Below are positions 2,770 through 28,639 of a stretch of 36,217 bases of DNA, one piece after another. The stretch's first letter is position 1. Every line of letters begins with the position of its first letter. A program made the position numbers and the translations under genes. The DNA is taken from positions 1 through 36,217 of the forward strand of contig JAAUSR010000054.1 of the NCBI GenBank assembly GCA_012032555.1, read 5' to 3'. This DNA comes from Thioploca sp. GTDB lineage: Bacteria; Pseudomonadota; Gammaproteobacteria; Beggiatoales; Beggiatoaceae. The notes under the pieces were generated by a model, which was not told the origin of the DNA, made no database searches, and worked only from the letters and a program-made list of their open reading frames with translations.

Positions 2770-4221
2770 TTATTTATCCTCCAAATCAATAACCCAAGTA
2801 TCTTTACTACCACCACCTTGAGAAGAATTGACAACTAACGAACCTTTTTTCAGCGCCACCCGGGTAAGACCGCCGGTGGTGACATAGGTGGTATCACTTT
2901 GTAAAATGAAAGGTCTTAAATCAACGTGACGCGGTTCGACCTGATCATCACAGAGTGTTGGAACGGTTGAAATCGTTAAAGTTGGTTGGGCAATATAATT
3001 GCGGGGATCTTGTTCAATTAATTCGGCAAATTTTTCGCGTTCCTTTTTGCTCGCATGCGGGCCAACTAACATACCATAACCACCCGACTCATTAGCTGGT
3101 TTCACCACGAGCTTATCCAGATTAGCTAATACATACTGGCGTTGTTTGTCCTCTAGACAACGATAAGTTTCAACATTAGGAATAATGGGATCCTCATTTA
3201 AATAATATTTAATAATATCGGGAACATAAGAATAAACTACTTTATCATCAGCAACGCCAGCACCGGGGGCGTTAGCTAACCCGACCCGACCTTTGCGCCA
3301 AGCGCGCATTAATCCTGGGACACCTAATAACGAATCGGGATTAAACACTTCTGGATCTAAAAACCAATCATCCACTCGCCGATAGATGACGTCGACTCGC
3401 TTAAGACCTTGAATATCACGCATATAGACACAATCATTGTCGCCAACTACTAAATCCGGAGCTTCTACCAATTCAGCACCCATATTTTGAGCCAGATAGG
3501 CATGTTCAAAATAAGCCGAGTTGTAAATTCCGGGCGTTAATACGACCACCTGCGGGTAATCTAACGGACGTGGCGAAATAGCGGCTAACATATCAAATAA
3601 TTTGGAGGGATAATCATCAACCGGTTGAATATTTTGATACTCAAATAGTTCCGGCAAAACCCGTTTCATGACCGAGCGATTTTCTAACATGTAAGATACC
3701 CCCGAGGGCACACGAAGATTATCTTCTAACACATACAGAGTACCATCCCGGTCACGTACTAAGTCACTACCACAAATATGAGCCCAAATGTTAAAGGGTG
3801 GTTTAATGCCTACACATTGTGGACGAAAATTTTTAGATTTTGCTAATAATTCTGCTGGAAAGTGACCCGCTTTAACAATCCGTTGTTCACTATAAAGATC
3901 ATCAATAAATAAATTAAGTGCGGTAACTCGTTGCTTTAACCCGGCTTCAGTGCGATCCCACTCTGATTTAGGAATAATCCGCGGAATGATATCAAAAGGC
4001 CAAGCTCGGTCGATGGTTGAACCTTCAGAATAAACTGTAAAAGTAATTCCCATGACTTGAATAGCTAGTTCCGCAGCGTCCTTACGTTCCTTCAATTCTT
4101 CATCGTTCATGGAACTTAAATAATTACCTAGCTCAGCGGCGGCTGGTTGAAGTTCAGCCGTTTTGCCTATCAGTTCATCATAAATATCTTTTATTGGATA
4201 ATTTTTCCAATCAATTGGCAT
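2770..4221 (-). CDS. Circularly permuted ATP-grasp protein (DUF404/DUF407)
   Basis: This 483-residue protein has hallmarks of the CP_ATPgrasp family: GVSYMLENRSVMKRVLPE around residues 174-191, VVVLTPGIYNSAYFEHAYLA around 225-244, LVGDNDCVYMRD-like segments, DVIYRRVDDWFLDP near 277-290, and the glycine-rich LVVKPANESGGYGMLVGP around 370-387. The family is predicted to be an ATP-dependent carboxylate-amine ligase that forms peptide-like bonds; the substrate is unknown. A Shine-Dalgarno GAGGA sits about 8 nt upstream of ATG 4221. The stop codon is separated by one base from the Alpha-E gene, so the two form an operon. The 550-bp gap upstream presumably holds the promoter. The gene looks complete. 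Confidence 0.9.
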   Translation of the reverse strand: MPIDWKNYPIKDIYDELIGKTAELQPAAAELGNYLSSMNDEELKERKDAAELAIQVMGITFTVYSEGSTIDRAWPFDIIPRIIPKSEWDRTEAGLKQRVTALNLFIDDLYSEQRIVKAGHFPAELLAKSKNFRPQCVGIKPPFNIWAHICGSDLVRDRDGTLYVLEDNLRVPSGVSYMLENRSVMKRVLPELFEYQNIQPVDDYPSKLFDMLAAISPRPLDYPQVVVLTPGIYNSAYFEHAYLAQNMGAELVEAPDLVVGDNDCVYMRDIQGLKRVDVIYRRVDDWFLDPEVFNPDSLLGVPGLMRAWRKGRVGLANAPGAGVADDKVVYSYVPDIIKYYLNEDPIIPNVETYRCLEDKQRQYVLANLDKLVVKPANESGGYGMLVGPHASKKEREKFAELIEQDPRNYIAQPTLTISTVPTLCDDQVEPRHVDLRPFILQSDTTYVTTGGLTRVALKKGSLVVNSSQGGGSKDTWVIDLEDK

Positions 4222-4771
4222 GGATTTTTCCTCGGTGGTTTCTCGATATCGTTTAATAAATTATCAGATTTTTTTCTTATATTAAAAAATAAATATAACT
4301 TATTAACAACAAATGACCTTCTTGTTAAATTATTAGCGGTGATTTAATTGCAACCGGAAAAACAGTTGTGAAGGAATAAAGTATTATCTAAATGATGACG
4401 GCAATAGTTATACCCAATTTATAACCAATTAAAATTAATATAATATTATAAAATTAATTCAACAATTGTTATAAATCTAACAAAAAATGAGGAGATCGTT
4501 GTAAGCAATTTGACATTATTTAGGGAGCAAGAAACCATGATTAAATCAGTCAAAGGATAATGAAATGGCAGTTTTAGCAGTGATTGAATCTGAAGACTTA
4601 GTAGATAGAGTGCGTTAAGCGTCAGCCGTAACGCCCTAGCTCGGTAGGGTGGGCAACGCTTCGCTTTTGCCCACCATTTCTAAATAAATGAAAGTAAGTT
4701 GGGAAGAGATTGCTAACCTATTTAGCTTAAAATATAATCATATTGGTTTTCCAACAGCGGATTAACTCATA
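4222..4771. other. Intergenic region with repeat and short frame remnants
   Basis: The first 330 bases are AT-rich and show no gene. On the + strand a short frame starts at 4565 (MAVLAVIESEDLVDRVR, stop about 4618). It is followed by the palindromic repeat at 4643-4678 and another short frame from 4688 (25 codons, MKVSWEEIANLF...) ending in TAA at 4763-4765, in the same frame as the next gene. The two short frames could be pieces of one older gene split by the repeat. I cannot assign either. Confidence 0.35.
4643..4678. repeat. Palindromic intergenic repeat, family A
   Basis: GGTAGGGTGGGCAA and TTGCCCACCATTT flank the core CGCTTCGCT, making a hairpin with a roughly 9-bp GC-rich stem (GGTGGGCAA-type). 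The same unit occurs at 25202-25236 with the arms exchanged, showing it is dispersed. It resembles the REP/MITE-like repeats common in Beggiatoaceae. Confidence 0.8.
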
Positions 4772-6481
4772 GTGAATAACAATGAATCCCAAGATTCTGC
4801 TCAACACTTCGCTTCCTTAAAAGCCTATTATAAGGCAGATCAATATCAAGATTACTCATCAGCTAGCCTACTTTATTTCATTTTAAGAAAAATTGATGCC
4901 GGTATTTTGCTAACCGATTTAGAATTTTCTTGGTTAAGGGAAAATAATCTTGTCGATACGATTGAGTGTATTGAGAGAAAAGCAAAGTATTTTGATAAAT
5001 TTTTAACAGAAGTAAATGAATTATTTAAGCAATATCTACCATCGACTTATCTGACTTATGGAATAATGGGGCTAACCGGAGAGTCATTAAGTAAGCCAAT
5101 CCATTTCATACTTAAAAAGTTAGAAATATTACAACCATTAACCCCAGATGATATAAGCTATCTTAATGCTAACGGGTTTCCGCGATTAGTTACTTTTGCC
5201 GAATTTCGAACATTGAAAGCTAAATATCAAGCTGTCCAATATCCAGATTCTCAGCCTTCTAGTCCATTGTATGCAATATTAAAACAATTAGATGTTAAAG
5301 AACGCTTAAGCATTGAACAAATTGAATGGTTACAATCTCAGCAACTTCCTGAAATATTTGCTATTTTCGAGCAACAAGAATCAAACAAAAATAGCCAATT
5401 CGCCACGTTAAAGGAAAAATATCAAGCCAGCAGTTATGCTGATACCTCTTATTTAAGTCGTCCTCTTTATGAGATTTTGCAACAATTAGACGCTAATAAG
5501 CCCATATCTAAGTTACAAATAAATTGGTTAAAACAACAAGGACTGGCTGAAACCATAGCTGTTGCGGAAGAACAGAAAAATATTAGAGATTTTGAGACAC
5601 TCAAATGTAAATATAAAGCCACTACCATTCAAGAGTCCTCTATTTCCAGCCATTTATATAAAGTACTTAAAAAAATTGACGCAAAAGATTCACTCAGCGA
5701 ACCCGATTTTAATTTTCTTAACAACCGTAAATTAGTACCCACATTCGTGATTTACGTTCAAATGAAAATAAAACATAACCAAGTATTGACAGAATTCGAA
5801 TATAATTGGTTAGTACAAAATAGGCAACATAATGAAATTATTGATAATAACAAAATACGCCACTACTTAATTTCAAGAAAATTAGATGATGGAAAACGAC
5901 TTGATGAAATTGAGGCGACTTGGTTGTATGATTAATATAAAGATGAAGTTGCTCTTCGGATTCGCCATCATGAAATAGAAGCCTTGTTTTATGAAAATGA
6001 ATATAAATGCACAAAAAATAAATGGAACTTAGCTAATGCAAGCAGTCATTGGCGTAAAGCGGAAAAGCCCAAATCGGCATTAGCCGTAACAGATGAATTG
6101 AACTTTGTAACAATTAAAGAAGATAAGCTTAAATCAGCTTTGTTAACAACACGCGGTGGTGCTTTTCGTGATCTTCATGAATTAGATCAAGCTGAAAATT
6201 GTGCTAAACAAGCCATTCAAGGCTATCCACAAAGTTATCATCCCTACACATTAATGGGAACCATTTGTTTTGAACGTGGTCAATATGGAGAGGGTGAAAA
6301 GTGGTTCGAAAAAGCCATTCAGCGGGGTGCTTCTCCACAAGACCACGACGCCGAACTAAAACGAATTGTTAAAAACACTAAAGTTGAAAGTAAACTTCTA
6401 GAATTAATAACTTATCTATTAAATAAAGACAAAGAACGATACGCTTGGGCTGAAAAATATTTAAAAAATAAACACCGGTAA
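4772..6481 (+). pseudogene. 60-residue-repeat protein with C-terminal TPR domain, in-frame TAA
   Basis: The frame starts at GTG 4772 (stop at 4763-4765 upstream; no better start) and reads about 569 codons with one interruption, TAA at 5933-5935. Reading through keeps the same frame (...EATWLYD, stop, YKDEVALRIRHHEIEALF...), so only one codon is affected. The N-terminal part holds five to six imperfect units of about 60 residues with the pattern F..LK.KY.A..Y.......PLY.IL..LD....LS...I.WL. Residues after about 430 hold a TPR-like region (LLTTRGGAFRDLHELDQAEN, YTLMGTICFERGQYGEGEKW) ending KKYL-like. There is no signal peptide. Function is unknown; TPR and helical repeats suggest a protein-binding scaffold. 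Either the gene was inactivated very recently, two proteins are made, or the TAA is a base error. Confidence 0.7.
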
Positions 6482-6910
6482 TGCAGTTGTTTTCACATGT
6501 GAATTAAGAGCAAGTCTGTAAATAACACCAAAAGAACATAGCCGCAGCCAGTCTACCAAACACCTGAACAAGGTAACGATACCGTTCGCTCCGGTGTAGT
6601 TTACCGTATTTTCATATAAGACCAATACCTCGGTTGGTATCCTTAAGCACTTAAATAAAAATGATAAAAACGCCAATTACACAAAACACATGACAAATCC
6701 AACGCCATCATCTAAATCGTGATCTCATTATCTATTCTGAATGTACTTCAACCACGTACTCATATTTTTTGGGGAGTAGTTTGGTTATTGATAAAGATAA
6801 AAGCTTTTATTGAACAATTCTATCAGGCCATTTTAGCTTTAGTTTGGCGTGAATTTAAAAATAGCTTAAACAATTCATCTTCTACAACTACTAACCTTTT
6901 CATCATATTC
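6482..6910. other. Intergenic stretch without recognisable gene
   Basis: Some 430 bases lie between the TPR gene and a family B repeat. A 70-codon frame on the + strand (6719-6931) runs into the repeat and has no family resemblance or ribosome-binding site, so I do not count it as a gene. Nothing else is recognised here. Confidence 0.4.
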
Positions 6911-7001
6911 AGCTTGGTAGGGTCGGTGTAACGCAGTGAAACCGACCATTAGAAATATCAATAAAGGTCGGTTTCGCGTTGCTGCACCGACCCTACAGCC
7001 T
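6911..7001. repeat. 91-bp palindromic repeat, family B, copy 1
   Basis: The unit starts AGCTTGGTAGGGTCGGTG and ends CACCGACCCTACAGCCT. Outer arms TAGGGTCGGTG/CACCGACCCTA and inner arms GAAACCGACC/GGTCGGTTTC are complementary, with an AT-rich loop containing AATATCAATAAA. It matches the copy at 8616-8706 at all but about two positions. A diverged copy in reverse orientation is at 22356-22430. It has no coding capacity and looks like a MITE- or REP-like element. Confidence 0.88.
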
Positions 7002-7156
7002 AAGATAACTGGAGATAACTTCAGTGTAAGACTTATATTAAGTTAATTATAAAGCATGGAATGAATATTTGTCCGCGTAGCATAAACTATGCGCGGACTT
7101 AATTTAGTTCTTTATAGCCTTCCTCATAAACTAAATAGCTTCTTATTCATATGAAT

Positions 7157-7498
7157 TTACTTTAAAGGCGGTTGAGGAATTGGACAAGGTGCTTCTACAG
7201 TGGTTATTTTGCCATTACTATATGTAGTAGTCTTTATCTGAGTGCAACTACTACCTAACGGTACTACAATAGGAGAAACTGGACAAGGCTCTTCAGTGGT
7301 AGTGGCTTGATTATTACGGGTAGTAATAATTCGTTGTACACAACCACTCGAAATCATTGTTGGTTGTGGTGGAGGTATTTCTTTTTTAGAAATACCGTGA
7401 CTTAGTGGGTTGTTATAGTAATATTCTCCAGCCCAACCAGCTACACTCATAAAGCTACATAAGCTTAATATACTCAAACTTAATCTCACCTTATTCAT
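7157..7498 (-). CDS. Small secreted protein with two Cys-pair repeats
   Basis: The 113-residue product has a signal peptide (MNKVRLSLSILSLCSFMSVAGWAG, probable cleavage just after AGWAG), preceded by GGAG about 9 nt upstream of ATG 7498. The mature part contains two related units: SGCVQRIITTRNNQATTTEE followed by PCPVSP, and SSCTQIKTTTYSNGKITTVE followed by APCPIPQP. Each unit has one Cys at the start and one in a C-P-x-P motif, so disulfides in the periplasm are likely. I do not recognise the family. Intergenic repeats and an IS remnant flank it, so it stands alone as a transcription unit. Confidence 0.7.
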   Translation of the reverse strand: MNKVRLSLSILSLCSFMSVAGWAGEYYYNNPLSHGISKKEIPPPQPTMISSGCVQRIITTRNNQATTTEEPCPVSPIVVPLGSSCTQIKTTTYSNGKITTVEAPCPIPQPPLK

Positions 7499-7639
7499 AA
7501 TATTGCTCCCAGTAAGGAAATAGCATGTCTCGAAAAGATTTTAGATAGTTCTAATCCAGATTATTTCATAAACACCGCGCGATATTTTAGCATACTTTTA
7601 CTTTTATCCTAGTCTGGTCTGTCGATAAGCAGGGCTACC

Positions 7640-8615
7640 TCATAAAAAAGTCTGAGCAAGAATATTCGTTAAGGTGGCATTATCCCAGCCAGCGGCCTTA
7701 CGCATTCCTTTAATACTTACCCGTTTCTTTTTAATGGATTGGATCATGTTTAAAGCCGCGTGACGGATAATGCCGAGATTAGTAGGGGCGTTGCCTCTGC
7801 GTATACGACTCTGGTCTTCGCCAAACGACCTATCTAATACCCAATGTAGTTAATTGTCGAGGCTCCAAGGGAAGCGAACCGCAGCCAACGCTTCTGATGC
7901 TGTTGTTAGTGAACTACTAATAAAATAGCGTGTTTCTGGTGAAATCGTGTCGCCAACCTGACGCTCACTTTCGATGGCTACTATGCTGTTAAGGCTTTGA
8001 CATTCGGGATGCCGAAGTTGAAGCCACTCCATGTCAGTACTTAGCCGACCGCGTCTGATTTCAATACGTCCATGCCCTTTATCAAGGGTTTCTGCCGTAC
8101 TCATCTTCGCTAATGATGAAGCCGGGGAGAGTGTAAAATACAGTTCGACATCTTCAGGTAAGTTACTTTGATTGCCTTTTAGGGCCAGGAGGTAATCGCC
8201 ACCTCGATGGACAATTTTCTCAGCAAGGTTTTTTTGGCAACCCATCGCATCAATCGTGACAATGGCCCTACGCACATTTAACCATCCCAATAGTTCGGGA
8301 ATGGCAGTGATTTCATTGGATTTTTGGTCAGTTTTCATTTGACCTAAGACAATGCCCGCTTCGCTAGCAAAGGTGGAGACTAAATGAATCGGTGATTAGT
8401 AGGTATCGTAACTACCTCGTAGGGTTTTACCATCAATCGCCACCACTGATTTAGCCACTTCGGGGTTTAACCAAGCTTGAATCCATTGCATAAATAACCG
8501 TTGGAACTGATTACTATCTATTGCCCGAAAGAAACGCCTTAAGGTATCATCGCTGGGAATACCATTTCGGTATGCTAAATATTGCCTTAACAAATCCAAC
8601 TTTGACCAACCAAAT
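7640..8615 (-). pseudogene. ISAs1-family transposase remnant (two in-frame TAA, N-terminus lost)
   Basis: Read leftward from about 8615, the frame gives LFGWSKLDLLRQYL..., FFRAIDSNQFQ, the ISAs1 motif AIDGKTLRGS, then TAA (8396-8398). It continues in the same frame with SPIHLVSTFASEAGIVLGQM, the DDE-domain segments VTIDAMGCQKN and DYLLALKGNQ, and KGHGRIEIRRG. A second TAA (7850-7852) comes before LHWVLDRSFGED and a tail ending at TGA 7640. Both TAA codons sit where homologues usually have a residue such as Gln, so one C-to-T change each would explain them. The N-terminal 40-60 residues are missing and the frame meets a family B repeat at 8616. The element cannot make an active transposase. 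Confidence 0.87.
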
Positions 8616-8706
8616 AGCTTGGTAGGGTCGGTGTAACGCAGTGAAACCGACCATTGGAAATATCAATAAAGGTTGGTTTCGCGTTGCTGCACCGACCCTA
8701 CAGCCT
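8616..8706. repeat. 91-bp palindromic repeat, family B, copy 2
   Basis: Nearly identical to the unit at 6911-7001 and in the same orientation; the differences I see are CCATTGGAAA for CCATTAGAAA and GGTTGG for GGTCGG. It lies exactly where the ISAs1 transposase frame loses its N-terminus. Confidence 0.88.
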
Positions 8707-8892
8707 TACCTTAGCGAGCGTAACCTGGATAAAACGAAGCCAAGTAGGTCGGGTTAGCGAAGCGTAATCCGACTCTTTGAATGGATAACCCCAAAAACGT
8801 ACCTTGAGGGTTGAGTAAAGCTTCACTAACTCGACCAACTTAACTAGCACTGGATTGAGGAATAAAGCCCAGCGAACCTGAATCGTACTTAG
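8707..8892. other. Mosaic of short degenerate palindromic repeats
   Basis: This stretch is made of repeat-like pieces. GTCGGGTTAGCGAAGCGTAA with TCCGAC just after it forms a hairpin near 8743-8768. Related arms occur near 8812-8875 (GGGTTGAGTAAAGCTTCACT; GGATTGAGGAATAAAGCCCAG). The motif type recurs at 25122-25140 and 28870-28892. No gene is visible. Confidence 0.5.
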
Positions 8893-9063
8893 TATCTAGC
8901 TATCCGAAACGAAACCGGCAATGCTCTTTTTGAAGAACCGATTGGTGTTTATCCCCTTAATTGGGCTACCCATCACCCCAAAGTGCTCCATATTACTCTG
9001 GAACCGGTTGGATTTCGTTCCTTAACCCAGCTGAGGGTTCGTATTAACCTTTATTTGAAGTAA
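8893..9063 (+). pseudogene. C-terminal gene fragment of unknown family
   Basis: An open frame without a start codon reads YLAIRNETGNALFEEPIGVY, then PLNWATHHPKVLHITLEPVG, and ends LRVRINLYLK before TAA at 9061-9063. Its composition looks like real protein, and it starts where the repeat mosaic ends. I do not recognise the family. It is probably a truncated tail left after repeat insertion or deletion. Confidence 0.4.
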
Positions 9064-9129
9064 TAGCAAATAATTTCCTTTGACATTTTTAATCCATTCT
9101 GGTCTCCTATACACAAAATATAATCGTCT

Positions 9130-9210
9130 TCGTTACCAAGCTCAGCTTGGCGAGAGAAACGAAGCCGAGCTTCGTGTACAGATACTATCAAGCTCGGTTT
9201 GGTAGCGAGC
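9130..9210. repeat. Palindromic repeat, family F
   Basis: The left arm CGTTACCAAGCTCAGCTTGG is an imperfect reverse complement of the right arm CAAGCTCGGTTTGGTAGCG, and a GAAGCCGAGCTTCG hairpin lies between them. The unit abuts the TnpB-like fragment that follows and probably caused its truncation. Confidence 0.6.
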
Positions 9211-9347
9211 TAAATGCTGCGCGAAACGTTTTAGCCAAACTTCATGATCGGGAGATAGATTCGCTGGACCTCCTATCACAAGGTGAAGTCCATCTTGCTA
9301 GAACGGACTTAGCGACACTGATTGGGGCTGCTCAACCAGGACTCTAA
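9209..9347 (+). pseudogene. TnpB-like (IS200/IS605 OrfB) C-terminal fragment
   Basis: About 45 codons remain, reading LNAARNVLAKLHDREIDSLD and ending LIGAAQPGL before TAA at 9345-9347. The D/N-x-NAARN-(I/V)L pattern is the conserved C-terminal end of TnpB/OrfB proteins, RNA-guided nucleases of IS200/IS605 elements. Everything upstream, including the catalytic part, is gone and replaced by the family F repeat. No omega-RNA or IS ends were recognised. The assignment rests on a short match. Confidence 0.5.
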
Positions 9348-9431
9348 TTGCAATTTTTCGGAGTTATCAATCGAGAGCAAATAACTTAAAAATATACAAC
9401 TTTGTATAACTTTTTAGGAACAGTAAAAACT

Positions 9432-9899
9432 ATGGAGTTAAAACTGGAATATGAACAAGATTTTCACCAGTGGATTAAACACCACATTACTTTGCTACGC
9501 AATGGTCGTTTTGAGGAGATTGATGTTGAACACCTGATTGAAGAATTAGAAGGTATGGCTAAACGTGACAGAAATGAATTGGTAAGCCACCTAAAAATTC
9601 TGATAGCTCATCTGCTGAAATGGCAATTTCAATTGCAACAACTCAATGAGAAATGGCAAGAATTTGACGGCAGAAGTTGGCAACGTTCTATTATAGAACA
9701 ACGTTCTCAGATTGCTGATTTATTAGAAAACATCCCCAGCTTAAAATCTCACTTGAGTGAGTCAGTGAAATTAGCTTATCCTAAAGCAGTCAGTTTAGCT
9801 ATTGATGAAACTAAGCTACCTAGATCTTTATTTCCTCAATTTTGTCCATACACCGTTGAACAACTGGTAGACAGAGAATTTTATCCACCTAGTGAATAA
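9432..9899 (+). CDS. DUF29 family protein
   Basis: The protein of about 155 residues starts MELKLEYEQDFHQWIKHHIT and contains DVEHLIEELEGMAKRDRNEL and LIAHLLKWQFQ, the hallmark pattern of DUF29 (YxxDFxxWxxxxxxLLRxxxFxxxDxxxLIEELExM...LxxLLxHLLKWQ). I chose ATG 9432 because the family begins just before Y-E-x-D-F; AGGA lies 12 nt upstream. DUF29 genes are abundant in cyanobacteria and large sulfur bacteria; the function is unknown. It is a single gene among IS remnants, complete, with C-terminus REFYPPSE. Confidence 0.85.
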   Translation: MELKLEYEQDFHQWIKHHITLLRNGRFEEIDVEHLIEELEGMAKRDRNELVSHLKILIAHLLKWQFQLQQLNEKWQEFDGRSWQRSIIEQRSQIADLLENIPSLKSHLSESVKLAYPKAVSLAIDETKLPRSLFPQFCPYTVEQLVDREFYPPSE

Positions 9900-9903
9900 A
9901 TAG

Positions 9904-10248
9904 TTCGCGTTGGTGTCCTGAGTGATTCCTAAAGTGGGGGCAGACTTTGTCTGTCGGATGGAAGAAGTGTTAGACGGGTATGAGCAACCCGATAATGCAA
10001 CCACCCGTTCGTCTGTTTGGACGCCCAGACAGTTGAGAGGGGAGCGGCGGAAGTCGTTTACGGATGAATATGGAGTTGAACATGTCGATTATAAATAGAC
10101 CCGAGAAGGCACTGTCGATCTCTATCTGGTCGTTGAGCCGTTGACTGGTAGACGTGAGGTCCTAGGAAAAGCTCAACATACACGGCTTGACTGGGCTGAA
10201 GTGGTGGCATATTTATCGCTCGTAACCTCGATAACCAGAATAAATTGA
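9904..10248 (+). pseudogene. IS630-family transposase internal fragment
   Basis: One frame reads VIPKVGADFVCRMEEVLDGY, then later EHVDYK, TAG (10096-10098), TREGTVDLYLVVEPLTGRRE and DWAEVVAYL. This matches the IS630 pattern W-x-I-P...FV..ME.VL..Y....VDY.Y.R.GT..L....EPL.G.R. A TGA at 9919-9921 replaces the expected Trp before VIP. Residues that normally carry the first catalytic Asp (V-C-x-D-E) are lost, and the frame ends at TGA 10246. Both ends of the gene are missing. Confidence 0.75.
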
Positions 10249-10505
10249 GGAAATAAGAGATGATCTTTTTTTCTACGGTGATGAATTACCATCATCCCTA
10301 TGCAAAATATAATAAACTATTGATTATTATAATATAATTTATGGTAAACGGAACCATCAAACTCTCACCGCTTAACTTACAAAAATTAAGTTATGTGAAA
10401 GCCAATATAGGGATTGCTAATTATCGGGTTGTGTTTTAATACATCGGAACGCATTTTTTTTCGCTACCCGTTCAGAGTCTTAGGACGGTCATTTGGATAC
10501 TGGAT
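10249..10505. other. Upstream region of the LplT-Aas fusion gene
   Basis: The region is AT-rich. A 32-codon frame at 10341-10439 (MVNGTIKLSPLNLQKLSYVK...) is preceded by no clear ribosome-binding site; it could be a leader peptide, a remnant or chance. The promoter of the large gene should lie here, but I cannot single one out. Confidence 0.3.
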
Positions 10506-22306: not shown

Positions 22307-22355
22307 TATCAATTTATCTGGCGACAATTACCACCGCTCTGGTTCCTAAGAATCT

Positions 22356-22430
22356 GTAGGATCGGTGCCGCAACGCCAAACCGACCCTTATTTATTGATA
22401 TTTCAAAGGCTCGGTTTCACTGCGTTACAC
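22356..22430. repeat. Palindromic repeat, family B, diverged copy 3 (inverted)
   Basis: GTAGGATCGGTGCCGCAACG ... CGGTTTCACTGCGTTACAC, with loop TTATTGATATTTC, is the reverse complement of the family B units at 6911-7001 and 8616-8706, with more differences. It ends six bases before the stop codon of the M28 peptidase gene. Confidence 0.75.
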
Positions 22431-25177: not shown

Positions 25178-25236
25178 CATTTTGCCCACCATCAATAGTG
25201 AAATGGTGGGCAACGCTTCGCTTTTGCCCACCCTAC
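25178..25236. repeat. Palindromic repeat family A (one full and one partial unit)
   Basis: TTTTGCCCACCATCAATAGT is followed by ATGGTGGGCAACGCTTCGCT and TTTGCCCACCCTACC. The full unit at 25202-25236 is the inverse of the unit at 4643-4678; the CCCACCAT...ATGGTGGG pair is a second hairpin. A degenerate AAGTAGGGTGAGCGAAATCC lies just before. Confidence 0.75.
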
Positions 25237-25696: not shown

Positions 25697-28639
25697 ATGA
25701 AATCCTATCTTATTTATTTAGTTATTATTATCAACTTGTTAACTACCGTGGTTTTAGCCGACGAGTGGAAGTTTTCCTATCGTTCCCAACGGCATTTTAC
25801 CGCTATTTGGGGAAGTGCTGCCAATGATGTGTTTGTAGTTGGCGTTAGCGGTTTAATTTCTCACTATGATGGTTCGCAATGGCAGGAAATGGAGAGTGGT
25901 ACTCTTCTTAATTTGAATGGTATCTGGGGAAATTCTAGTACCGATGTGTTTGTGGTTGGTAATGGTGGTACGATTCTTCACTACGATGGTAATCAATGGC
26001 ACGCTGTGAATAGCGGGACTTCTACCAATTTTAACAAAATTTGGGGGAGTTCTAGCACGGATGTGTTTGCGATTGATGGGAGTATGATTTACCACTATGA
26101 CGGTAAGCAATGGTACCCGATGACTAAGGTAACCTCAGCTCATCTTAATGATATTTGGGGTAATTCCAGCACGAATGTATTTGTGGTTGGTAGTGATGGT
26201 GCAATTCTCCATTACGATGGCAATCAATGGAACACCACAAATATCGGTACTTCTGATAATCTTGTTGGTATCTGGGGTGCTTCTAGCACGGATATGTTTG
26301 TGATAGGGCTAGGTTGGAATGGGACGAATATGATTCTTCACTACGATGGCAACCAGTGGTATACCATGATTTTAACTGCGGATACTTTGATCAACATTTG
26401 GGGTAGTTCTAGTACGGGTGTATTTGCGATGGGGGGGAATACAATTTTTCATTATGATGGTAATCAATGGAATCCTATGAATAATCTTGTACCTCATTCT
26501 GCCTATTTTGTAGGAATCTGGGGCAGTTCCAACACCGATGTTTTTGTGGTGGGAGATAATACGATCTACCATTACGATGGTAATCAATGGAATATTATGG
26601 TCGGTGAGAATTACGTTAAGGCTAAAAGCATCTGGGGCAGTTCCAGCACTGATATATTTATGATCAGCGAGAATAATATAATTTCACACTACGATGGTAA
26701 TCGATGGAGCTCCATGAATAATGAGACTGCTACTGAACTTGATAGTATCTGGGGTAGTTCTAGCACCGATGTGTTTGCGGTGGGTAGGAATTGGAATGAT
26801 AGTATCATCCTTCATTATGATGGTAATCAGTGGAACACCGTAAACAGTGGAACTCCTCTTCTTGCTGACATTTGGGGTAGTTCTAGCAAGGATGTATTTG
26901 CGGTGGGAGAAGCAGGTACGATTCTCCATTATGATGGCAACCAATGGACTACTATGAACAGCGGGACGGATGATCCTCTTCTTGGCATCTGGGGCAGTTC
27001 TAGCGTCAATGTGTTTGCGATTGGTATTTTTACTATTCTTCATTATGATGGTAACCAATGGAAAACCATGGATATTGGAATCTCATCCACTTTTCAAGAC
27101 ATCTGGGGTAGTTCTAGCACGGATGTATTTGTAATAGGTGAAGGAAGAATTCTCCATTACGATGGTAACCAATGGAGCACCATGATCAGTGTGGTTTGTA
27201 ATGGTCTTACTCGTATTTGGGGTAATTCTAGCACGGATGTGTTTGCAGTGTGTAGGGATAGTACCATTCTCCATTACGATGGTAACCAGTGGACTACTAT
27301 GAAGAGTAAGAGTTCTCTTGATAATCTTTATGGGATCTGGGGTACCTCTAGCACCGATGTGTTTGCAATCGGAAACCGGATCTTCCACTACGATGGTAAT
27401 CGCTGGACTATAATTAGTGAAATTCCTACTTATTTTAAAAGTATCTGGGGTACTTCTAACACGGATGTGTTTGCAGTCGGCGCTTATGGTGAGATTTTTC
27501 ACTATGATGGTAATCAATGGATGCCGATGAACAGAGGAACTGAATTTCTTAGTCTTAATGGCATTTGGGGTAGCTCTAGCAAGGATGTATTTGTAGTGGG
27601 GTGTGATGGTGCTACAATTCTCCATTACGATGGTAACCAGTGGACCACGATGAACAATAGTACCGATACTTGTTTGAGCAGCATCTGGGGGACTTCTAGT
27701 ACAGATGTGTTTGCGGTAGGTGGGGGTATGATTCTCCATTACGATGGTAACCAGTGGACTACCATGATTAGTAGTGTTGATGTTATCAACATCTGGGGGA
27801 ATTCCAGCACTGATGTGTTTGCGGTGGGAGACAATACGATTCTCCATTACGATGGTAACCAGTGGACTACAACGACTATTGGTGTTGATGTTTATCTTAA
27901 CGATATCTGGGGTGATTCCAGCACCAATGTGTTTGCTGTTGGAAGTGTTATTAATCTTCCACCTGGCTATAGGATTATTCTTAATATGGAGAACTTAATT
28001 AGATCTTATCATTGTGAGGGTAGGATTTTTCATTATGATGGTAACCAGTGGACAACGATGATCAGTTTAACTCCTACTAGTAATTTTAGTGGTATTTGGG
28101 GTACTTCTAACACCAACGTGTTTGTGGGAAACACCGAATTGACAACAACAGCTAATTCAACTCCTTCAACAGGTACTCTTTTTCACTACAATGGTGATAA
28201 TTTGACAGCAACAACTATAGATTCCTATCCTACTGGAGCAAAATTTTATGGTTTTCTTGGTTTCCCTGTTATTTATGATATTTGGGGCAGCCCAGAAGGC
28301 GATGTCTTTGCCGCCAGTGACCAGGGCATTCTCCGCTGCGCCAATTGCCAACAACCTGCTGAAGCAACAACAGCAACGTGTGGGGTGGGTAAAAATTGTA
28401 GTGGCGAATATTTGCCTTTTACTCTAGCTAATTTAACCGCAACAACATTAGAAAATCAACTGGTTATCCAATGGAATACCGCTCTTGAAATCAATAGTTT
28501 AGGGATGAATCTTTGGTGTGCACAACTCACCGGAAATCAGTTTGAAAACGTTACTCAATTGAATGGCGAACTCATTCCTACCAAGGCAATTCTACCTCAG
28601 TTAGGTCCTCTTACTCTTCCGCTGACTATCCAACGATAA
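25697..28639 (+). CDS. Secreted protein with 21 IWG/DVF-HYDGNQW beta-propeller-like repeats
   Basis: The 980-residue protein has a signal peptide (MKSYLIYLVIIINLLTTVVLA, cleavage near ADEW) and GGAGG 11 nt upstream of ATG 25697. From residue 30 to about 890 it contains 21 copies of IWGxSSTDVFAVG, 20 of them followed by ILHYDGNQWxxM. Spacing is 37-60 residues. Similar repeats occur in secreted proteins of myxobacteria and sulfur bacteria and are thought to be beta-propeller blades; 21 equals three seven-bladed propellers, which is my inference. The C-terminal part has CxxC-like pairs (RCANCQQ, CGVGKNCSGEYLPF) and NLTATTLENQLVIQWNTALE. The last 12 residues are out of family because of a frameshift near 28595-28625. 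Probably an extracellular or surface binding protein. Confidence 0.85.
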   Translation: MKSYLIYLVIIINLLTTVVLADEWKFSYRSQRHFTAIWGSAANDVFVVGVSGLISHYDGSQWQEMESGTLLNLNGIWGNSSTDVFVVGNGGTILHYDGNQWHAVNSGTSTNFNKIWGSSSTDVFAIDGSMIYHYDGKQWYPMTKVTSAHLNDIWGNSSTNVFVVGSDGAILHYDGNQWNTTNIGTSDNLVGIWGASSTDMFVIGLGWNGTNMILHYDGNQWYTMILTADTLINIWGSSSTGVFAMGGNTIFHYDGNQWNPMNNLVPHSAYFVGIWGSSNTDVFVVGDNTIYHYDGNQWNIMVGENYVKAKSIWGSSSTDIFMISENNIISHYDGNRWSSMNNETATELDSIWGSSSTDVFAVGRNWNDSIILHYDGNQWNTVNSGTPLLADIWGSSSKDVFAVGEAGTILHYDGNQWTTMNSGTDDPLLGIWGSSSVNVFAIGIFTILHYDGNQWKTMDIGISSTFQDIWGSSSTDVFVIGEGRILHYDGNQWSTMISVVCNGLTRIWGNSSTDVFAVCRDSTILHYDGNQWTTMKSKSSLDNLYGIWGTSSTDVFAIGNRIFHYDGNRWTIISEIPTYFKSIWGTSNTDVFAVGAYGEIFHYDGNQWMPMNRGTEFLSLNGIWGSSSKDVFVVGCDGATILHYDGNQWTTMNNSTDTCLSSIWGTSSTDVFAVGGGMILHYDGNQWTTMISSVDVINIWGNSSTDVFAVGDNTILHYDGNQWTTTTIGVDVYLNDIWGDSSTNVFAVGSVINLPPGYRIILNMENLIRSYHCEGRIFHYDGNQWTTMISLTPTSNFSGIWGTSNTNVFVGNTELTTTANSTPSTGTLFHYNGDNLTATTIDSYPTGAKFYGFLGFPVIYDIWGSPEGDVFAASDQGILRCANCQQPAEATTATCGVGKNCSGEYLPFTLANLTATTLENQLVIQWNTALEINSLGMNLWCAQLTGNQFENVTQLNGELIPTKAILPQLGPLTLPLTIQR

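Follow-up and report, generated by a model that had tools for sequence, protein, structure and literature searches.

The DNA analysed here is a stretch of 36,217 nucleotides from a Thioploca sp. (contig JAAUSR010000054.1 of the assembly GCA_012032555.1), which in its entirety is referred to below as the window. It contains two near-identical 91-bp palindromic units, which bracket a small open reading frame (ORF) and the remnant of a transposase gene, and farther along a truncated third copy of the same unit:

6911..7001, plus strand: REPIN unit 1, 91 nt including the shared edges AGCTTG and AGCCT; GTAG..CTAC core at 6917-6996
6917..6947, plus strand: left REP of unit 1, an unpaired GTAG with a 7-bp stem-loop; fold z -2.9
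6966..6996, minus strand: right REP of unit 1, inverted, an unpaired GTAG with a 7-bp stem-loop; fold z -2.8
7157..7498, minus strand: small ORF between the units, 113 aa; no Pfam match at E 0.001
7640..8617, minus strand: ISAs1-family transposase remnant with two internal stops, its 5' end missing at the edge of unit 2
8616..8706, plus strand: REPIN unit 2, core at 8622-8701; differs from unit 1 at 2 of 91 positions
8622..8652, plus strand: left REP of unit 2, identical in sequence to the left REP of unit 1
8671..8701, minus strand: right REP of unit 2, a decayed arm whose own stem is broken; z 0.5, equalled by 142 of 200 shuffles
22354..22430, minus strand: truncated third copy, 87% identity over unit positions 16-88, directly downstream of an M28 peptidase gene

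The first-pass annotation had reported a pair of near-identical 91-bp twins in the same orientation, and its coordinates proved exact: units 1 and 2 lie on one strand at a spacing of 1705 and match at 89 of 91 positions (98%), the differences falling at unit positions 41 and 59. Beyond them the likeness ends at the edge, with the next 40 bases matching at 15/40 positions on the left and 14/40 on the right. The third copy, at 22354-22430, was absent from that annotation's list. Each unit consists of an inverted pair of REPs separated by a short AT-rich linker and is hairpin-forming: the inverted arms of the 91-nt unit measure 35 nt and are 80% complementary; the DNA fold of unit 1 reaches -31 kcal/mol against -9.7 +/- 2.3 for its shuffled versions (z -9.3, with 0 of 200 shuffles as good); and the whole-unit fold of unit 2 has a z of -8.0 relative to shuffles. 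The nested outer and inner arms that had been described are real in unit 1, both of whose arms are GTAG stem-loops; for unit 2 the description holds for the left arm, which folds alone, but not for the right one. Folded singly, three of the four window arms place the GTAG outside a short, GC-rich stem-loop, the exception being this right arm of unit 2. We consider the identity of the units as REPINs secure.

REPINs were described in Pseudomonas fluorescens SBW25 as inverted REP doublets that form hairpins (PMC3116915). The present units share with those of SBW25 the inverted REP pair, the variable spacer, the single-strand hairpin, dispersal, a specific RAYT and singlet remnants, but differ in constituting a sequence family of their own, in being found at 21 sites as against hundreds of doublets, and in that a cognate RAYT was not found in the draft genome of the host (PMC3116915). 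REPs of the GTAG type have published stems of 5-13 and loops of 2-20, and several REP families with repeat-specific REPtrons may occur in one species (PMC3733652); the outside GTAG, 7-bp stem and 13-nt gap of this REP fall within those ranges. The word 'Beggiatoa' is absent from the main text of that survey of GTAG REPs and REPtrons, and literature searches on REPINs and RAYTs, orphan RAYTs, Beggiatoa palindromes and Thioploca repeats listed no account of this REPIN family. The family is new, the kind of element known; its hosts are related to filamentous sulfur bacteria.

A nucleotide search of the window's own genome (G000) recovered 21 sites of this REPIN, which remained from 36 rows upon removal of 12 opposite-strand duplicates and three short, weak matches (C84, C192, C197); two of the 21 are on C22, 98 bp apart. 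These sites support the dispersed, non-autonomous palindromic element postulated in the first-pass annotation. The refutation which that annotation had named, a lack of further copies or their restriction to strictly conserved positions, did not come about: G000 has 21 sites and the one same-genus genome searched (G001) none. A pattern scan identified full GTAG..CTAC doublets at 8 of the 21 sites; in the remaining 13 the unit is cut short or rearranged, or the pattern's core has changed. The linkers are of two types, a short one as in the window units and a longer one. Site pairs less than 3 kb apart were seen three times, on three contigs, against an expectation of 0.23. The sites are mostly extragenic on an ORF-based measure, 11 of the 12 examined (out of 21) lacking an overlapping ORF of at least 100 aa. 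Such positions might also befit a functional RNA or transcription signal, for instance a terminator or an mRNA-stabilising hairpin, that is maintained by selection and is mobile only incidentally; unit 1 is flanked on both sides by the 3' ends of convergent ORFs (5984-6481 on the plus and 7157-7498 on the minus strand). However, an Rfam match is absent in 4000-10500, both units are devoid of a terminator-like site, and the element is lacking in G001; we therefore regard a selected RNA signal as improbable.

Family matches were obtained in five of the 57 genomes searched, the own genome included (G000, G002, G020, G027, G033), and the per-genome counts are to be read as at least the given values in the richest genomes, where the best 15 candidates were scored. 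While a first, stricter pattern scan of named genomes returned 0 loci, a looser one returned 38 loci in nine genomes; 32 of these are labelled Thioploca, Ca. Halobeggiatoa, Ca. Marithrix or Thiotrichaceae, and six come from one Aquificaceae-labelled MAG. The loci scanned provide 42 distinct full units (8 of them from G000), with arms that are alike and linkers that vary in sequence and length. G020 and G057, to which a Thioploca CSMAG_545 locus belongs, yield identical rows. The Aquificaceae-labelled genome that carries this REP, along with the sole intact cognate RAYT detected (G060; record "Aquificaceae bacterium MAG 28", loci L207 and L138), stands beside eight named genomes whose labels are those of Thiotrichaceae-type sulfur bacteria; its label may be wrong, or the element may have been transferred.

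REP-associated tyrosine transposases (RAYTs, or TnpA-REPs) are HUH Y1 relatives of the IS200/IS605 transposases, and RAYT-like genes are common in these genomes. One of them has the palindrome of the window units, GTAGGGTCGG, beside it. It is an intact gene of 175 aa in G060 (L207:2183-2707), whose product scores 160.2 bits against a cut-off of 80 with the NCBIfam model NF047646 (REP_Tyr_transpos), stays below the cut-off of the IS200 model (34.8 versus 55 bits), contains a Y1_Tnp domain (PF01797, 42.8 versus 23 bits) and displays, as H-F-H, the HxH motif, which binds metal. A GTAGGGTCGGTG REP lies 10 nt after its stop codon, and an inverted CACCGACCCTAC lies further downstream. Likewise, two decayed RAYT ends in G020 (C122 and C155) and a decayed RAYT start in G058 (C477) are each at most about 30 nt from the same palindrome. 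When compared with 13 reference RAYTs, the three remnants match that of G060 best (67.6% over 71 aa, 70.5% over 44 aa and 47.4% over 57 aa), and for the last of these no other reference gave a match at E 1e-4. In a tree of 45 rows chosen from 66, with the G058 remnant left out, a branch with support of 100/97, recurring in 200/200 bootstrap trees, separates the G060 RAYT and both G020 remnants from all other rows; the remnants fill just 41% and 31% of the columns, and L071 is on a long branch. Among the 57 genomes, rows with more than 51% identity to the G060 RAYT come from G020 only.

Further, a GTAG palindrome occurs within 260 nt of 26 of the 34 other RAYT rows (at least 150 aa and at least 160 bits), a count from which chance palindromes are not subtracted, and the palindrome of the window occurs within that distance of none of the 34. 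Stem types beside these other RAYTs include GTGGGT, CTGGGTT, TCGGCAA and GTGGAATA. The suggestion of the first-pass annotation that the units are mobilised in trans by a RAYT is thus supported by palindrome adjacency, best matches and the 100/97 clade, and on these three lines of sequence comparison the pairing of the REPIN with the G060 RAYT clade is well supported.

A RAYT of this clade was not found in the G000 draft (198 contigs, 99.69% completeness). The best of nine G000 matches to the G060 RAYT reaches 46% (C142) and carries another palindrome; the RAYT-like sequences on C68, C88, C92, C125, C182 and C186 match other references best rather than that of G060; and on the tree the RAYTs of C142, C147, C22, C19, C72 and C68 fall outside the G060 clade. 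The separation is not a sharp one: nearest to the clade are the C147 and C22 RAYTs together with a relative from G001 (96/92), on long branches of a midpoint-rooted tree, and the palindrome of the C147 and C22 RAYTs also begins with GTAGG and holds TCGG. Two candidates for the cognate enzyme were set aside on account of their own palindromes. The Y1_Tnp match on C72 adjoins a unit, but the gene to which it belongs is paralogous to the C19 RAYT, has palindromes of the GTAGGGTGGGCAACG type upstream and breaks off at the unit, a junction that looks like that of unit 2; the C142 RAYT has a unit 0.8 kb off but carries GTAGGCTGGGTTGA palindromes.

With G000 split into 198 contigs, a cognate gene could be hidden between them; we infer that its loss is the likelier explanation. 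The REPIN hence looks orphaned in this genome, and its present mobility there is doubtful. Loss of the REPtron has been described for some strains, and a REPIN without a RAYT of its own is allowed for (PMC3733652). Orphan status and decay of the REPIN in G000 are likely on the evidence of the draft. We consider it unlikely, if somewhat less so than a selected RNA signal, that the orphan REPINs are still being copied by a non-cognate RAYT, such as those of C147 and C22, or outlive their enzyme inside MITEs bounded by terminal inverted repeats, like those of Halobeggiatoa.

Palindromes of other kinds also occur in the window. An element of the GTAGGTCGGGTTAGCG type, distinct from the REPIN, occupies 8726-8840, right after unit 2; similar stretches are found on C182, on C125 and some 140 nt past the Y1 domain of the RAYT on C19. 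A 28-nt palindrome, GGTGGGCAACGC..TTGCCCACC, is present in two identical copies, at 4648-4675 and 25205-25232, and resembles the REPs that surround the RAYTs of C19 and C72. Elsewhere in the window, at 25697-28639, a 980-aa ORF contains a repeat of about 114 nt with a 36-nt core that occurs 18 times around the motif HYDGNQW.

The edges of the units bear on how they might have moved. Target duplications, which the first-pass annotation had proposed to examine, were looked for over 42 units, and none of a fixed length emerged; the best excess is a 2-nt match, seen in 9/34 units from other genomes and 4/8 from G000, about 4 and about 2 above shuffled pairing. The lack of a fixed-length duplication agrees with a Y1 mechanism and counts against an ordinary DDE MITE. 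As for cleavage, a CT lies at most 6 nt before the GTAG in 22 of 27 G000 REPs, as against 25% of control positions; this count omits 2 of 29 rows (C22:70330 and C92:25551) in which GTAGGGTCGG is present and the REP absent. The corresponding figure in the other genomes is 22/83 versus 24% in the control, that is, no enrichment. The TnpA-REPs of E. coli, Stenotrophomonas and Marinomonas bind the single-strand REP hairpin, use its GTAG and cut at a CT beside the REP, in Marinomonas also at CA (PMC8266576). By analogy, the CT position in G000 would fit the C|T cut of a TnpA-REP, and the present REP and RAYT would be a pair of the same kind, with the differences that the G060 clade is known from its sequence and that the CT enrichment is seen in G000 only (PMC8266576). 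However, the REP edges in G000 share descent, so that the 22/27 cases are not independent, and common inheritance of the edges, not repeated cutting, may account for the excess.

A MITE of a DDE insertion sequence, be it ISAs1 or another, moved via its terminal inverted repeats, would account for the 35-nt inverted arms with their 80% complementarity and for the fact that one copy touches the ISAs1 remnant. A relative offers a further point in its favour: in G033 (Halobeggiatoa HSG11; L070, L076, L078, L080) REPINs are found inside an element of about 190 bp with terminal inverted repeats of about 25 bp, both ends of which were seen in 4 of the 7 loci examined, so carriage of a REPIN by a MITE-like element happens in that organism. 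Ca. Thiomargarita nelsonii, a sulfur bacterium that belongs to this broad group, likewise has dispersed palindromic repeats; its hupL MITE is capped by 10-bp direct repeats (PMC4853749), whereas the REPIN units have none of a fixed length. Against a DDE MITE as the nature of the unit itself, the arms are GTAG-headed stem-loops, a single RAYT clade carries the palindrome, the flanks of the window pair beyond the unit are unrelated, and target duplications of a fixed length are absent over the 42 units. Considering as its source the ends of one insertion sequence, the ISAs1 remnant, whose 5' end is missing, we judge this origin to be very improbable.

The ISAs1 remnant is itself real, as the first-pass annotation had held: an ORF within it (7850-8338) matches the NCBIfam model NF033564 with 161.5 bits against a cut-off of 70, and the longer frame has two internal stops. 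The evidence gave no support to an involvement of ISAs1, or of the gene between the units, in the repeats. A fragment on G000:C18, comprising an N-terminal part of ISAs1, overlaps window positions 8555-8617 and continues beyond them, and the sequence on the far side of unit 2 is not ISAs1; hence, rather than to a clean insertion, the edge of unit 2 corresponds to a breakpoint left by a deletion or rearrangement. The same C18 fragment was rejected as an empty site, as it matches up to the left edge of unit 2 only and thus records a truncation junction. That the two units are the ends of a composite element carrying the bracketed gene and ISAs1 might be read from the direct-repeat copies flanking 1.6 kb, but the segment 7580-8900 is whole in the window only (among the best 40 candidates per genome in G000, G001, G020 and G033) and unit 2 adjoins a truncated ISAs1, which leaves such a composite scarcely credible. 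The ISAs1 remnant and the ORF at 7157-7498 look like bystanders.

The history of the window pair can be read in more than one way. The first-pass annotation took the repeats to be much younger than the transposase remnant and to have moved recently. In keeping with this, units 1 and 2 are the closest pair among the aligned copies and have in common the edges AGCTTG and AGCCT and the end of the linker, where the other aligned copies differ. What weakens this reading is that the copy on C181 agrees with unit 2 at both positions at which the two units differ, so an exchange between copies can also explain their near-identity. Either the one unit was copied from the other with two subsequent changes, or copies exchanged sequence, the pair perhaps being evened out by gene conversion; from the sequences, recent movement of the pair is plausible. 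It is also possible, though in our estimate short of an even chance, that the pair arose by local duplication or gene conversion rather than by recent transposition, the family having spread earlier. This would be consistent with the agreement of unit 2 with C181 combined with edges and a linker end as in unit 1, with a cognate RAYT not being found in the G000 draft, and with the state of the 13 truncated, rearranged or core-changed sites. Against it, the likeness stops a few bases outside the GTAG on both sides, as it would for a mobile unit, and close pairs are present on three contigs.

The search for empty sites gave no clean one for 8 of the 21 copies (three in the window, three on C75, and those on C46 and C149). 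In G001, the segment 4700-9400 of the window has short matches only, among the best 40 of 186 candidates; the genes on either side of the third window copy have their counterparts far apart, again with no clean empty site; the C46 and C149 copies sit between blocks that are about 0.2 and 1.2 Mb apart; and of the C75 copies, C75a aligns on one flank only, with C75b and C75c lacking an adjoining block. As gene order is heavily shuffled between G000 and G001, the test has little power. The two genomes have 80-90% DNA identity, with neighbouring blocks mapping far apart, and the C46 and C149 copies are located in such gaps; REPs are possible rearrangement points between them.

Taken together, we put the probability at roughly 85% that each 91-bp unit is a REPIN served by the RAYT-clade enzyme seen in relatives, of which the window's genome retains relict copies. 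By this account, we advance the following mechanism, modelled on the published TnpA-REPs. The REPIN, which codes for no protein of its own, would fold into hairpins as single-stranded DNA; the RAYT would recognise a REP hairpin by its palindrome and GTAG, cut beside it, and move or copy the REPIN elsewhere. The cognate enzyme would be of the RAYT clade that lies beside the same palindrome in G060, G020 and G058, and with this enzyme lost from G000, or missing from its draft, the copies there would probably represent a relict population in decay.

These findings identify an initially puzzling repeat as an element of known kind and assign it a likely enzyme. They also point to genomes rich in RAYT genes; the majority of the intact genes scanned have a GTAG palindrome nearby, in which the stem differs on both sides by clade, and this variety of RAYTs and palindromes is a natural panel for how RAYTs read their REPs. 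If a RAYT of the C147/C22 type were to act on the present palindrome, the pairing of one RAYT with one REP would look looser than thought. Finally, the apparently orphaned set in this Thioploca genome allows the fate of REPINs after the loss of their transposase to be asked.
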